The notes beneath the pieces were generated by a model that ran no database searches, was not told the DNA's origin, and worked only from the letters and a program-made list of their open reading frames with translations. Positions 17,845 to 29,084 of a stretch of DNA of 29,084 bases are shown here, one piece after another. Position 1 is the stretch's first letter; every line of letters begins with the position of its first letter. The translations under genes were made by a program, and so were the position numbers. The DNA is from a virus: IMG/VR virus record IMGVR_UViG_3300049825_000406, positions 1-29,084 of that record, one strand, 5' to 3'.

Positions 17845-19260
17845 ATGACGATTTGGCAGGAACTACGAAATTATATCAGTGCCAGGCTCGCAGTGCGAGA
17901 CGCAATCAGTTTGCCGATGGATGGCAGATCGTCACGCGATGAGAAATTGGATTCGATCATTTCCAGATTCGCCGGAGCCAATCAGGAAATTGCACCGGGA
18001 ATAAATTTTGAAACGCTTCGCTGTTTGAAAACTTTGTGGATTACCCATCCGACTTTAAGTCAGGCAGTGGGGAATTTGCAGGCACTCGCGAATACGGGCC
18101 ACAAAATCACGCTCGAAACGAAAAACGTCGAAGCGATTTTGAAGCGCCTGGATGAAACGGCAGCGCGGATTTATCCGAACAGCTACGGCGTTGATGGATT
18201 CGTGAATGATGCCATCGCGCAGATTATGTGGAGCGGTGCGTTATCACGCGAAGATGTTGTTGATCTCGCAGCAAAGCAGGTTCGCAAAATTGTTTTGGTT
18301 CCACCGGAGCAAGTTCGATTTGTTGCGAAAGATCACGAATGGGAAGCGCATCAGTTTGTATCGGGCTTGTTTGGCAATGCGGCGCAGGGGATTCAGGGGA
18401 TTCCCTTGCATCCGACGACGTATCGGTATTACGCCCTGACGCACGTTGATAATTCGCCGTATGCGAAACCGCCGTTTACGGCTGCGCTGGAAAGGATTCT
18501 GAAAACAGAAACCAACATGCGGGCGAACATTGATTCGATCATTGAAAAGCTGGGCATCTTTGGAATCTTCAGTGTTGAGGTTGTGCAACCTCCGAAAAAA
18601 ACAGGCGGTGGCGAGACAGAAGAGGAATATCAATCACGCGCTCAGAAATATTTGAGCAAGGTGCGTGAGGTCTTTGAAAAGAATCCTTTCAAGAATTTGA
18701 TGGTCACCTTCAAGGATCAAAAGGTTTCTCATACCTCAACAACGGGCGATGCGCGGGGAGCTTCGGAGCTGTACGGAATGAATCGGCTAGAGGTAGTGCA
18801 AGGCATTCAATCAATGCCGGCCTTTCACGGGATGACGGATTCGGTGACAGAAACGTTTGCCGATGTCGTTTGGAAGATTTTGCAAGCGCAGGGTGAGAAT
18901 TGTCAGAACTTAGTGACACGCAGTTTGCAGCGAACCTACACGTTGGATTTGTTGCTGAGCGGTTTGGATGCGACAGGATTATCAGTTGCCTTCAACCCGA
19001 TTCTCTCGCGTAATATTTTGCAGGAAGCGCAGGCGCGACAGGTGCAACAGGCGATCACGATTGCGGATGAGCAGGCTGGCTACATTGATATTGACGAAGC
19101 GGCACAGCAGCGCGGCTATAAGAAGGCTGCGAACCCGAAACGGAAAGACGGCGCGGGGTTAGTTTCTTTAAGTTGGAATGGACAGCAGAACCGATATGAA
19201 TTCGAGCGGGAATCAATTTCGGTGTCGAGTTTGATCGTAAAAAAAAAACAAGTGAATTGA
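17845..19260 (+). CDS. Portal protein
   Basis: A 471-residue portal. It follows the terminase and precedes the gpF-like gene, as gp29 (DUF935) does in Mu, and has typical portal segments (DGFVNDAIAQIMWSGALSR, VPPEQVRF, the stem-like helices FGIFSVEV, and a C-terminal coil rich in QEAQARQVQQA). It would form the dodecameric ring for DNA entry. The last codons cross an A10 run (19239-19248). In the -1 frame the reading continues straight into the gpF-like gene. Confidence 0.85.
   Translation: MTIWQELRNYISARLAVRDAISLPMDGRSSRDEKLDSIISRFAGANQEIAPGINFETLRCLKTLWITHPTLSQAVGNLQALANTGHKITLETKNVEAILKRLDETAARIYPNSYGVDGFVNDAIAQIMWSGALSREDVVDLAAKQVRKIVLVPPEQVRFVAKDHEWEAHQFVSGLFGNAAQGIQGIPLHPTTYRYYALTHVDNSPYAKPPFTAALERILKTETNMRANIDSIIEKLGIFGIFSVEVVQPPKKTGGGETEEEYQSRAQKYLSKVREVFEKNPFKNLMVTFKDQKVSHTSTTGDARGASELYGMNRLEVVQGIQSMPAFHGMTDSVTETFADVVWKILQAQGENCQNLVTRSLQRTYTLDLLLSGLDATGLSVAFNPILSRNILQEAQARQVQQAITIADEQAGYIDIDEAAQQRGYKKAANPKRKDGAGLVSLSWNGQQNRYEFERESISVSSLIVKKKQVN
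19239..19248 (+). promoter_or_regulatory. A10 slippery run at the portal-gpF junction
   Basis: Ten A residues precede the portal stop by ten bases (GTA AAA AAA AAA CAA GTG AAT TGA). A -1 ribosomal slip, or one extra A added by the polymerase, gives AAA ACA AGT GAA TTG ATC, which enters the gpF-like frame with no stop between. A weak hairpin (ATTGAT/ATCAAT) lies just beyond. It may cause a portal-gpF fusion or may be a sequencing-prone run. Confidence 0.45.
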
Positions 19261-23484: not shown

Positions 23485-23903
23485 TGCTGAATTCTGCTGA
23501 CGACATCCGGGCGCGGGTCAATTATGTGGATTCGGAAATTCTGAATTCACAAATTGACCCGCACATCAAATCGGCTTCGCGGCGCATCATCCGTTGGGTT
23601 GGCGCGGACGCTTACGCTGATGCGGGGATCGGCTCTCCGGTGAATGCAGATCGCGCGGATGATCTGACGAATGCAGAGGCGGCATTAACACTTTATTTTT
23701 TATTGAAGTGGTTACAAACCAACGTCACGAATCGCGGGATGGTCAAGCAGGCGAAAGAGGACGGCAATACCGTCAATCAGTTTTATTCACCGAAAGAGGT
23801 TGCTGATTTTATGCAGCTCTATTGGGATGAAGCCGAGCAACTATGTAAGCCGTGGCAACTGACCGACGACGCGATTAGTTCCGTGCAGTTAACGAATCTA
23901 TGA
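23484..23903 (+). CDS. Head-tail connector, Mu Gp36-like (DUF1320 type)
   Basis: A 139-residue helical protein (DIRARVNYVDSEILNSQIDP, ADDLTNAEAALTLYFLLKWL). The layout (N-terminal helix pairs with an R..Y pattern, then an (A)L.. helix and a WDEAE tail) is like the head completion/connector proteins in Mu and related phages. It is tightly coupled: starts at the TAATG of the gene before and ends at an ATGA with the gene after. Family by pattern only. Confidence 0.6.
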   Translation: MLNSADDIRARVNYVDSEILNSQIDPHIKSASRRIIRWVGADAYADAGIGSPVNADRADDLTNAEAALTLYFLLKWLQTNVTNRGMVKQAKEDGNTVNQFYSPKEVADFMQLYWDEAEQLCKPWQLTDDAISSVQLTNL

Positions 23904-25292: not shown

Positions 25293-26414
25293 ATGAGCGT
25301 TATTAGCACGGTCGGAAAAGTTTACGGTTTATCACGGGTTCCTGAATCCGCTTACGGCGTGGCAGTTGCCGCCGCGAACGGCGCAGGTAAAGCGCATCAC
25401 CAGGTACTTTTGAAGAAAGCCGATAACCCGGTCAAGGTCGAAGTCCGCACGAAAAATAATCAGGAATTTGCGACCGGATCAAACTTTGCGACGCGGCAAT
25501 ACACGACAGAACACGACGGGAATTTTAATTTCAATATTGATCTGGATTCGTTTTCACTGGGGCTGCTGTTGCACTCTGCGTTAGGTTCAATCGTTTCGAC
25601 TGCGCCTTACGCAGGCGCGGCGGCAGTCAAGAAACACGTCTATAAACCTTACGATCCGAAAGTAACTGCTCAGCTTCCTTCGCGGACGCTGCTGGAATTT
25701 TTGGCAGTCGGTGAAGATCGTGTTTTCCCAGGCGGTGTAGTGCAATCGCTAGAGCTGAAAGGCGATGGCAGCGGCACAATTGAAGCCTCGGTTACAATCA
25801 TCACGGCAGGTTCGATCATCAAGCCGTCATTGCATAATGTTGATTGGGCAGATACCGCGAACGTGACAGTTATCAAGCTCTCCAACGTCAATCCCTTTTT
25901 TGAGAATCCCCAGGCGCGAATTATCCTTTCCGACGTAGCCACGCAAGCGAATCCAATCAACATTGGCTGTACGCTCCGCAACTGGTCTATCAAGATTGAA
26001 AATAAATTGCTGGCTGAACTCGGCTATCAACCTGGTTGCTCTGGCAACTATTTTGATCCGCTTGACCCGACGCAGGGGATTGTCCGTACACGACTTTTAT
26101 CAGAAGGTCAGGACATTATGCTGAAGTATCAAGTTGAACTTGGTGCGCAGGATTATTTGAATTATCTCAGTACGCAGCGTCCCTTTGATTTTGTGCAAAC
26201 GCTCGGCACACGCAAACTGATTGCCACTGGCACAGGCCCGGTGGATTACTATCACAATGCCTCATTCAGAGCGTTCAATACACAGATCAAATCCGTGGAT
26301 CGAAGCGCACCGAATAACATCTTGATCGCCGATATTGAGCCAATGATTTTGGATGACGGCAGCGGCATCTTTCAGGCGATTGTTGAAAACGAAACTGCCT
26401 CTTACCTCGTGTAA
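25293..26414 (+). CDS. Tail tube (major tail) protein candidate
   Basis: A 373-residue beta-rich protein: N-terminal SVISTVGKVYGLSRVPESAY, then FNFNIDLDSFSLGLLLHSAL and SGTIEASVTIITAGSI and a C-terminal ISDVA.. strand set. The tandem similarity of two halves (each a strand block with a DLDSF- or LGAQDY-like turn) is like tail tube proteins that duplicate a tube domain. It lies directly upstream of the tail assembly chaperone pair. TTAGGAG precedes the ATG. The name is by position and composition; a search would settle it. Confidence 0.65.
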   Translation: MSVISTVGKVYGLSRVPESAYGVAVAAANGAGKAHHQVLLKKADNPVKVEVRTKNNQEFATGSNFATRQYTTEHDGNFNFNIDLDSFSLGLLLHSALGSIVSTAPYAGAAAVKKHVYKPYDPKVTAQLPSRTLLEFLAVGEDRVFPGGVVQSLELKGDGSGTIEASVTIITAGSIIKPSLHNVDWADTANVTVIKLSNVNPFFENPQARIILSDVATQANPINIGCTLRNWSIKIENKLLAELGYQPGCSGNYFDPLDPTQGIVRTRLLSEGQDIMLKYQVELGAQDYLNYLSTQRPFDFVQTLGTRKLIATGTGPVDYYHNASFRAFNTQIKSVDRSAPNNILIADIEPMILDDGSGIFQAIVENETASYLV

Positions 26415-26489: not shown

Positions 26490-27125
26490 ATGAAAGCCCA
26501 AACAATGTACGACGCAGCGGCAAAACAAGTTGTCACTGTCACAGTGAAGCCGGGGAAAAAGATTCATCACGTCCTGTTATTGACGGATGAAATCTATCAG
26601 GAATATTTGGCAGGTAAGCCAACTGAACCGGAAGCCTCACTCGAATTTCTCTACGAATTGACGGCGCAGGATTTGACCGGAATTACAGGTGTATTACCTG
26701 AAAACTGGAAATCATTGGTTCCAAAAGCTGACAAGCATGACGTGATTGCGAATGGGTTACTGAAGGCTGATTTCATTGAACTGGAGGAAGCGATTGAGGA
26801 TGAAAGCGAATTCACGCTCGAAGATTATAGTCAGTCCGTTAAGACCGAAGCGACGTATAAACTGCGCTGTGCCTTCGATGGCGAGATGATTGATTGTGAG
26901 CATACGCTCCGTTCGTTTACGCCTGAAGAGCGCGAACATTTAGGCAAGATCGCGCAATCGAAAGTTTTCACAGAAGCCGAATCCCAAAAGAAAATCGCGG
27001 CATTTTACGACAAGGTTTTAGTTGAGAATAAAAACTATCACCGTGGCGTTGTCCCGCAATTTCATAAGGTCGCCGTGATCGTTCGCCACTTTTCCAGCGA
27101 GTCGCGGGTACTGCAAAAAAACTAA
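26490..27125 (+). CDS. Tail assembly chaperone, upstream product (lambda gpG-like)
   Basis: A 211-residue protein located just after the tail tube candidate. It has LVPKADKHDVIANGLLKADF and a helical, acidic second half (LEEAIEDESEFTLEDYSQSV), features of tail assembly chaperones. Its stop TAA directly follows the heptamer A AAA AAC (27116-27122), and -1 slippage enters the downstream ORF. GGAGAAGAAA precedes the ATG. In lambda-like phages gpG and the frameshifted gpGT together load the tape measure protein. Confidence 0.75.
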   Translation: MKAQTMYDAAAKQVVTVTVKPGKKIHHVLLLTDEIYQEYLAGKPTEPEASLEFLYELTAQDLTGITGVLPENWKSLVPKADKHDVIANGLLKADFIELEEAIEDESEFTLEDYSQSVKTEATYKLRCAFDGEMIDCEHTLRSFTPEEREHLGKIAQSKVFTEAESQKKIAAFYDKVLVENKNYHRGVVPQFHKVAVIVRHFSSESRVLQKN

Positions 27126-27183
27126 CCTGGCTTAGTCCCGCCATCACGAACCGTGTAGCGGAAATGTGGGGCGCGGCTAAGCC
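27116..27183 (+). promoter_or_regulatory. Programmed -1 ribosomal frameshift site (A AAA AAC plus downstream stem)
   Basis: The slippery heptamer A AAA AAC ends at 27122, one codon before the TAA at 27123-27125. A 7-bp stem GGCTTAG (27129-27135) / CTAAGCC (27177-27183) begins 6 bases downstream, a normal spacing for -1 frameshifting. After the slip the ribosome reads CTA ACC TGG CTT and 10 further codons into ATG TGG GGC of the next ORF without a stop. Confidence 0.85.
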
Positions 27184-27499
27184 GACGAATTCAGGCGAAC
27201 GCTGTCCAGGTGAAGAAAATTGCGAGCGATTTGGTTCGCAGGGCGGAGACGGCATCACGCACGCGGAACAAGAAATCGCAGCATGTACGTCGTGTTCGCT
27301 CAAAGGCACCAAGCCGGGCAAGTTTTCTAAAAGTGATTTGATTGGTTCGATAGTGAATTCAATCGTGAGACTGGCGCAACGGCGTGATAGCGGCTACGGG
27401 ATTCAGGACTTGACCGCGCTCGAAAGCGAGCTGCTGCTGACATACGACGCGGAACATGCGCACTACCACAGGGTGGCAGCGCAATTGAAATTTAGTTGA
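27122..27499 (+). CDS. Downstream tail assembly chaperone segment (lambda gpT-like), reached by -1 frameshift
   Basis: Expressed as the C-terminal extension of the gene at 26490, giving a fusion of about 336 residues; it has no ribosome binding site of its own, and the only ATG in frame is at 27164. The segment has a cysteine cluster (CPGEENC and CTSC, four Cys with a His) that could bind zinc, then a helical part (SDLIGSIVNSIVRLAQRRDS). In lambda the gpT part of gpGT binds tail tube subunits. The cysteine cluster is not typical of well-known gpT proteins. Confidence 0.75.
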   Translation, partial: LTWLSPAITNRVAEMWGAAKPTNSGERCPGEENCERFGSQGGDGITHAEQEIAACTSCSLKGTKPGKFSKSDLIGSIVNSIVRLAQRRDSGYGIQDLTALESELLLTYDAEHAHYHRVAAQLKFS

Positions 27500-27579: not shown

Positions 27580-27960
27580 ATGATCGTACCGGATCGTTTG
27601 GAAGTTGCGCTGGGACTTGCTCCAACACGTTTAATGAGCGGCACAATGGTGCGCTCAGGCGCTGCAATGAATGCGCTGGACGAATGGAAATTCAATAAAG
27701 ACGCCATCCTTTACGTGCCGAGAAATCTGGTTGGTGAAGTGTTGATCGGCTGGTCAAAGCCTGACGGTTCCTTGCCCTCAGCCATCGAAGCCACCTCCCT
27801 CTGGATATGGAATTTGGGCGCAGGCGACGCCTGGGAAATGCCGGAAATTCCTGACATGAATTATCAGCATTGCTGGGTTGCGGTTGGCAACGTGATTGAT
27901 GCGGGGAAGAAAATTGCAGTGGTGAATTACGTGTGGGGGACTGATGTCGCAGCAATCTAA
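27580..27960 (+). CDS. Hypothetical phage structural-region protein
   Basis: A 126-residue protein (GLAPTRLMSGTMVRSGAAMN, then LYVPRNLVGEVLIGWSKPDG and WEMPEIPDMNYQHCWVAVG), strand-rich with many W and G. No tape measure protein lies here, although one would be expected directly after the tail chaperones. GGTGAT precedes ATG 27580. Family unknown; the gene overlaps the next one by 17 bases. Confidence 0.55.
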   Translation: MIVPDRLEVALGLAPTRLMSGTMVRSGAAMNALDEWKFNKDAILYVPRNLVGEVLIGWSKPDGSLPSAIEATSLWIWNLGAGDAWEMPEIPDMNYQHCWVAVGNVIDAGKKIAVVNYVWGTDVAAI

Positions 27961-28300
27961 GCAAGGGCGGATTATTCGAGCTAGTAGCGGAGGCGGAGCT
28001 TTACCCGCAGTGCCTATTGATGCTCGCACAATTGGCAGCAGCGCGACGCCGCTCACGTTTACAGCCGACAATACGATCTTGACTTATGACGACATCGTTG
28101 GCGGTCAGATCGTTTTTGAATCAGCTACCTTACACGCGGGTAAGCGTGTAACGCTGATTGTGCAAGCTGGCAGTGGCAGTCTGAGCAGTGCGGAGCTGAT
28201 CCGCGATTCTGAAAAAGGCGGGATGCTTCCGAGCATCCCTTTTACGCAACATTACACAATCCCGTTTATCTCAAACGGCACAAATTGGAGCATTGAATAA
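27944..28300 (+). CDS. Small putative tail or fibre accessory protein
   Basis: A 118-residue beta-rich protein (VPIDARTIGSSATPLTFTAD, VGGQIVFESATLHAGKRVTL), with a glycine-rich N-terminus. GGGGGACTG before ATG 27944 supports the start. Such short strand-rich proteins before fibre genes are common; a specific family is not recognised. Confidence 0.55.
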   Translation: MSQQSKQGRIIRASSGGGALPAVPIDARTIGSSATPLTFTADNTILTYDDIVGGQIVFESATLHAGKRVTLIVQAGSGSLSSAELIRDSEKGGMLPSIPFTQHYTIPFISNGTNWSIE

Positions 28301-28302
28301 TT

Positions 28303-29084
28303 ATGGCAAATCGTGACATCGCCGCAACAGGCACAACCAACGTTGCAACGTTGGCGGCATTGCAAGCCGTCCTCTACGCAACACTGACGGCATATAAAGA
28401 ATATTTTGTCGTCGCGTCACAGAAAACATACAAGTGGGTAGCAGACGCCGTTTTTGGCGCGATCCGTCCAACCGACGCGCTATCTATCACGGGCGTAACA
28501 TTCACCAACGCCACGGACGTGGTGAACAAAACCGCTCACGGGTTTGTGAATGGTAATGCCGCTTACTTCCCACGTACATCGAATCTGGCACTGGCTACAG
28601 GCTTGAGCTACAACACGGTTTATTACGTTGTTGGAGCCACTGCAAACACTTTTCAAGTCTCTTTGACTTTAGGTGGAGCAGCAATCAACTTCACCTCAGA
28701 CGGTGGGACAATTGCGGTCACAGCCGACAACACAACCGACCTTCTGACCGCTGCGGCGCACGGGCTGAAAGATGACGATCAGGTATTTCTAACAGCTACC
28801 GCTTTTCCAACCGGATTAGCAGCAGCGACGATCTACTACGTCAAGCGAATCAGCGCAAATACCTTCCAACTCGCAGCTACGGCAGGCGGCGCGGCAATCA
28901 ACTTCACGACAGACGGAACCGCCGTTGTTGTGAATGGTGCTTTCGCAGCCAATCAAGCTGGCTGGTACGTGGCAGCCGATAACCAAGATGAGTACGTCAT
29001 TGACGCTTTGCCTGAAGTTATCACCCGTGTTGATGATTTGAATATCCGTGTATCCAACAAAGTTTTCGCCGCTGGCAACATTAC
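28303..29084 (+). CDS. Tail fibre-like protein with FCCH-type repeats (partial, runs off the window)
   Basis: At least 260 residues are visible. Two tandem repeats of about 70 residues (about 75-140 and 148-210) share AHG..., Y(Y)V, ANTFQ(V/L) and GGAAINF(T) segments. This pattern resembles the E1 FCCH-type domain found in many phage tail proteins, probably a beta-rich adhesion module. The N-terminus is helical (TLAALQAVLYATLTAYKEYF). No stop occurs before the window edge, so the full length is unknown. It may be a tail or baseplate fibre. Confidence 0.65.
   Translation, partial: MANRDIAATGTTNVATLAALQAVLYATLTAYKEYFVVASQKTYKWVADAVFGAIRPTDALSITGVTFTNATDVVNKTAHGFVNGNAAYFPRTSNLALATGLSYNTVYYVVGATANTFQVSLTLGGAAINFTSDGGTIAVTADNTTDLLTAAAHGLKDDDQVFLTATAFPTGLAAATIYYVKRISANTFQLAATAGGAAINFTTDGTAVVVNGAFAANQAGWYVAADNQDEYVIDALPEVITRVDDLNIRVSNKVFAAGNI

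Follow-up and report, generated by a model that had tools for sequence, protein, structure and literature searches.

A very probable −1 ribosomal frameshift signal joining two putative tail assembly chaperone genes of a transposable-type phage, with a candidate recoding site at its portal-MuF junction

The stretch of DNA analysed here (hereafter the window) is a 29,084-bp IMG/VR fragment of an uncultured, transposable-type phage. Its minus strand carries an rve-domain transposase, recognised by a weak Pfam match, together with a neighbouring AAA ATPase. The plus strand, on which all of the features discussed below are located, encodes in this order TerL, the portal protein, MuF (PF04233), a capsid protein (PF25209), connector-size genes and a tail tube protein, followed by the two ORFs called G and T here. 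The tail tube gene (25293..26414; PF18906 Phage_tube_2, E 1.5e-8; PHROG 290 tail, E 5.8e-10) lies directly upstream of G, an ORF of 211 aa (26490..27125) whose ATG is preceded by GGAGAAG. The ORFs found after T (27580-29084, where the contig ends) are not recognisable as a tape measure gene, unlike those at this position in relatives. No tRNA gene was found in the window, and an Rfam scan of it returned nothing.

The 3' end of G reads CTG CAA AAA AAC TAA and contains a run of seven A (27115-27121), which overlaps the slippery heptamer A_AAA_AAC (27116..27122). The heptamer is in the zero-frame phase X_XXY_YYZ that is canonical for −1 sites, and its last codon adjoins the TAA stop (27123-27125) with no codon in between. 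Over the 4,056 codon steps of the structural genes of the window, this is the sole heptamer abutting a stop, and the only other match near the end of an ORF is a poly-A tract at the end of the portal gene (see below). GGCTTAG (27129-27135) pairs with CTAAGCC (27177-27183), and the spacer (27123..27128), which includes the zero-frame stop, is therefore of 6 nt. These two segments form the outer stem of a putative stimulatory hairpin (27128..27184, −32.1 kcal/mol), which begins 5-6 nt 3' of the heptamer, within the range of about 5-9 nt for structures stimulating −1 shifts; its z-score varies from −2.84 to −4.4 with the length of sequence folded. The sequence-only reading had described both an in-phase A AAA AAC before the stop and a stem starting 6 bases downstream, and both descriptions hold, the hairpin being larger than the 7 bp noted at that time.

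No stop interrupts the −1 frame between 27068 and 27499, in keeping with what had been noted from the letters, and this frame contains the ORF listed from ATG 27164. Entered at the heptamer, it would add a T-like extension of 125 aa (27122..27499) to G, for a predicted GT fusion of 336 aa. T in the window has exactly four cysteines (T residues 28, 34, 55, and 58), forming a CPGExxC...C...C cluster (27203..27295). T overlaps G in the −1 frame with a single, poor candidate start: ATG 27164 lies within the hairpin and is not preceded by a suitably spaced Shine-Dalgarno sequence (GTAGCGGAA-ATG), in line with the earlier suggestion that this ORF lacks its own ribosome binding site.

Single-protein searches with G, T, or the tube protein recovered no relatives among viral contigs and phages, and a search with TerL found none in viral contigs and distant matches only in phages. 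An alignment of the portal protein with those of two gut phages led to 37 IMG/VR loci, and a second portal alignment to L043, a Pyrinomonadaceae prophage (Acidobacteriota, Blastocatellia) that is syntenic with the window until its contig stops, at the beginning of G. The full contig of another locus (L006, also referred to as G004 or L047; IMGVR_UViG_3300034026_000012) encodes a tube protein, G, T, and a tape measure-like ORF, and its T is 37.5% identical to that of the window. A search with a T profile gave matches in 6 of 162 genomes of the class of L043 (Blastocatellia), plus one (G074) in a phylum-wide search. The order tube-G-T-tape measure is shared by these relatives, which include Blastocatellia-class prophages and viral contigs: the tube gene is upstream in the window, the full order is seen in L047, L055, L057, L059, and L060, and a tape measure-like ORF also follows T in L008.

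Several of these loci have peculiarities of their own. The L006 contig has about 10 kb of extra genes within the head module, between MuF and a protease-like gene, and these include a second tape measure-like ORF of 1,409 aa (L006:12913-17142). The TerL ORF of L003 (6964-9459) is 831 aa long, versus 502 aa in its relative L002, and has a long internal insertion that resembles an intein. In the L066 prophage (G074:C10), nearly 5 kb separate two adjacent head-tail connector genes, homologues of the genes located at 23900 and 24478 in the window.

Comparison across homologues, set beforehand as the test that could refute the frameshift, revealed a canonical in-phase heptamer (A_AAA_AAC/G or G_GGA_AAC/G/A), with T in the −1 frame, at 14 of 15 distinct G/T junctions. 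The heptamer is AAAAAAC in the window, L057, and L092, AAAAAAG in L060, GGGAAAC in G004, L055, L058, L089, L090 (two copies), and L091, GGGAAAG in L056 and L066rc, and GGGAAAA in L059; GGGAAAC is also present in L008, at the junction of an unrelated chaperone pair. Since it alternates between A_AAA_AA(C/G) and G_GGA_AA(C/G/A), it is function that is conserved, and not letters. Outside the junctions, eight G ORFs scanned over 1,907 codon steps contain only one such heptamer. The heptamer adjoins the stop at 12 of the 14 junctions, with one intervening codon in L008 and 38 in G004, where the zero frame continues beyond the heptamer. The exception is the near-identical pair L071/L072 (L071:12285-12330), which has CTG GGG GAA, a G5 tract that is not canonical, with T still in −1. 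When the 65 nt downstream were folded at ten sites, z was negative relative to shuffles in all ten (mean −2.6, Stouffer −8.2), the weakest structures being those of L060 (z −0.8) and L057 (z −1.1); the position of the stem is kept across relatives, while its sequence varies. The presence of the same slip signal at this junction in nearly all distant relatives examined indicates that the site is real.

What G and T do is suggested mainly by where they are and how they are arranged. Neither protein of the window matched anything in Pfam or PHROGs, and no Pfam or PHROG chaperone match was obtained among the 9 G or 8 T members. The case for a chaperone role is therefore built from genomic position, gene architecture, and a weak structural resemblance. 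The N and C halves of G are homologous (hhalign probability 93.6, E 2e-7), which makes it an internal tandem duplication, and its structural model (pLDDT 73) consists of two copies of a beta-hairpin-plus-helices unit. Residues 1-90 weakly resemble the HK97 tail assembly chaperone 2ob9 (Z 4.2 over 80 residues, rmsd 5.3), a match that stands among middling scores and is not proof of kinship. The C half aligns with 5ir0 (Z 5.6), which comes from a PICI-like element of Vibrio and is itself uncharacterised, and Foldseek gave no significant match for G in either PDB or BFVD. G and T are probably tail assembly chaperone proteins.

The AlphaFold2 model of T is helical (pLDDT 85) and has no significant Foldseek match in PDB; with VIA-align, its best match was a yeast DNA-binding domain (Z 4.5), judged not meaningful. 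The four cysteines, CPGExxC and two later ones, are invariant in all eight sequences of alignment A8, CPGE is also present in L066rc, L071, L089, L090, L091, and L092, and every T checked has four or more cysteines. The cluster had been called unusual from the window alone; within the T family of this group it is on the contrary a hallmark. Such an invariant motif may well bind zinc, and a literature search for a zinc-binding T domain found no paper.

If T were a separate gene, translated by re-initiation after the G stop, the in-frame ATG 27164, located 38 nt past this stop and ahead of the Cys cluster, could serve as its start. However, this ATG is the one that lacks a usable Shine-Dalgarno and is buried in the hairpin, T homology is seen from the slip codon onwards, 14 codons before this ATG, and six of ten homologous T frames (G004, L056, L059, L060, L066rc, L008) have no ATG, GTG, or TTG ahead of the first Cys. 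A separate T would also need no heptamer, and re-initiation is thus very unlikely. Transcriptional slippage on the A-run is even less probable as the source of the fusion: the window does have A7, but most relatives use GGGAAA(C/G/A), without a long homopolymer, and the hairpin stands downstream at the spacing typical of ribosomal sites. The reading to which the least credence is given, next to none, is that an assembly or sequencing error in the A7 run has split a single ORF into G and T; homopolymers are indeed prone to errors, but relatives with GGGAAAC/G/A are split into −1 at the same place on independent contigs. It is the conserved heptamers, the folds, and the missing T starts that together make an independent start, an assembly error, and transcriptional slippage unlikely.

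The junction is thus almost certainly a programmed −1 ribosomal frameshift signal, placed between paired tail assembly chaperone genes of the lambda G/GT type. The joining of G-like and T-like chaperone ORFs by a −1 frameshift, first proposed from the sequence of the window, is supported by the 14 of 15 junctions and by the order tube, G, T, tape measure.

In lambda, G and T lie between the tail tube and tape measure genes and the heptamer is of the XXXYYYZ type, two features common to lambda and the window group. There too, a −1 shift near the 3' end of a G-type chaperone gene adds a T domain (PMC5009743), as is predicted for the window. In lambda, both G and GT bind the tape measure protein, tail tube subunits are bound by the T domain, and GT is the minor product, at about 30:1 (PMC5009743). 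However, the proteins of the window have no detectable sequence similarity to those of lambda, G is a tandem duplication and T has an invariant Cys4 in the window group, and the heptamer of the window abuts the stop and is then followed by a strong hairpin. Mu-type phages are another point of comparison. According to a passage of the KS10 paper, Xu et al. place a chaperone frameshift in Mu, as a −2 shift (PMC2628397). The phage of the window is likewise of the transposable type, has paired rve and AAA genes, and belongs to a group in which a predicted chaperone frameshift precedes the tape measure gene, but its shift is −1, its proteins show no sequence relationship, and a tail sheath gene is not seen beside its tube gene.

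A further parallel is provided by L008, whose protein at the G position is recognised by PHROG 313 (tail assembly chaperone, E 3.2e-8). As in the window, this gene has an in-phase heptamer, here GGGAAAC one codon before the stop, with a hairpin 6 nt past it, and is followed by a cysteine-containing T in −1 and then by the tape measure gene. The Cys pattern of L008 is nonetheless different, there is a faint DUF1799 match (E 0.04) below the cut-off, and hhalign found no similarity between the window-family G and T profiles and the L008 pair. L008 therefore supports the architecture, and is not shown to be homologous to the G/T of the window.

Taken together, these data indicate that a single message of this phage very probably yields both tail-building proteins, through a −1 slip of the ribosome. 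We infer both the slippage on the heptamer and its efficiency from the sequence. Most ribosomes would finish G, and a minority, impeded by the hairpin 6 nt downstream, would slip back by one base on A_AAA_AAC, thereby bypassing the abutting stop to synthesize the 336-aa GT fusion. If lambda is a guide, the tape measure protein would then be coated by many G and few GT molecules, with tail tube subunits being recruited by the T domain.

A second candidate −1 recoding site, at an A10 tract (19239..19248, region 19200-19260), would join the portal protein to MuF. Eighteen distinct loci, the window among them, have portal and MuF as two ORFs; every one carries an A9 or A10 tract just before the portal stop, and MuF is in −1 in each of them, in several cases without a start codon before the MuF homology. 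The tract is A9 in 16 loci and A10 in the window and L077. The homologous sites are L043:11482, L006:11425, L071:4468, L073:1899, L074:4052, L075:3448, L076:11419, L077:11424, L079:4212, L081:7621, L083:11500, L085:4620, L086:2926, and L090:11485, as well as those of G062 (L067), G099 (L068), and G074 (L070). Only one other homopolymer of at least nine occurs in the 284 kb of these loci. Portal and MuF form a single ORF in L007, L008, L044, L045, L087, L089, L091, and L092, and in L009, L078, and L084 no MuF was found and there is no A-run at the end of the portal gene. Microbacterium phages are known to have fused portal and MuF genes (PMC7302621), and a literature search found no report of a recoded fusion. 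The A9/A10 tract is a strong candidate for a site of recoded portal-MuF fusion, and A9 is compatible both with transcriptional slippage and with ribosomal frameshifting.

The late genes of this phage group are thus likely to contain two −1 recoding sites, a ribosomal one adding a Cys4, probably zinc-binding, T extension to G, and the A9/A10 tract, at which either transcriptional slippage or ribosomal frameshifting would give some of the portal subunits a MuF extension. The G/GT frameshift is already known, and is extended here to transposable phages found in prophages of Acidobacteriota (Blastocatellia); what is new is that the proteins show no sequence relationship to known chaperones and that the T family has an invariant Cys4. 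The combination of heptamer, hairpin, and −1 overlap offers a way to find such genes, which are invisible to family databases. Recoding at the portal-MuF junction is perhaps more novel than the G/T site and, if true, would represent a new way of setting the number of MuF-bearing subunits per portal ring.
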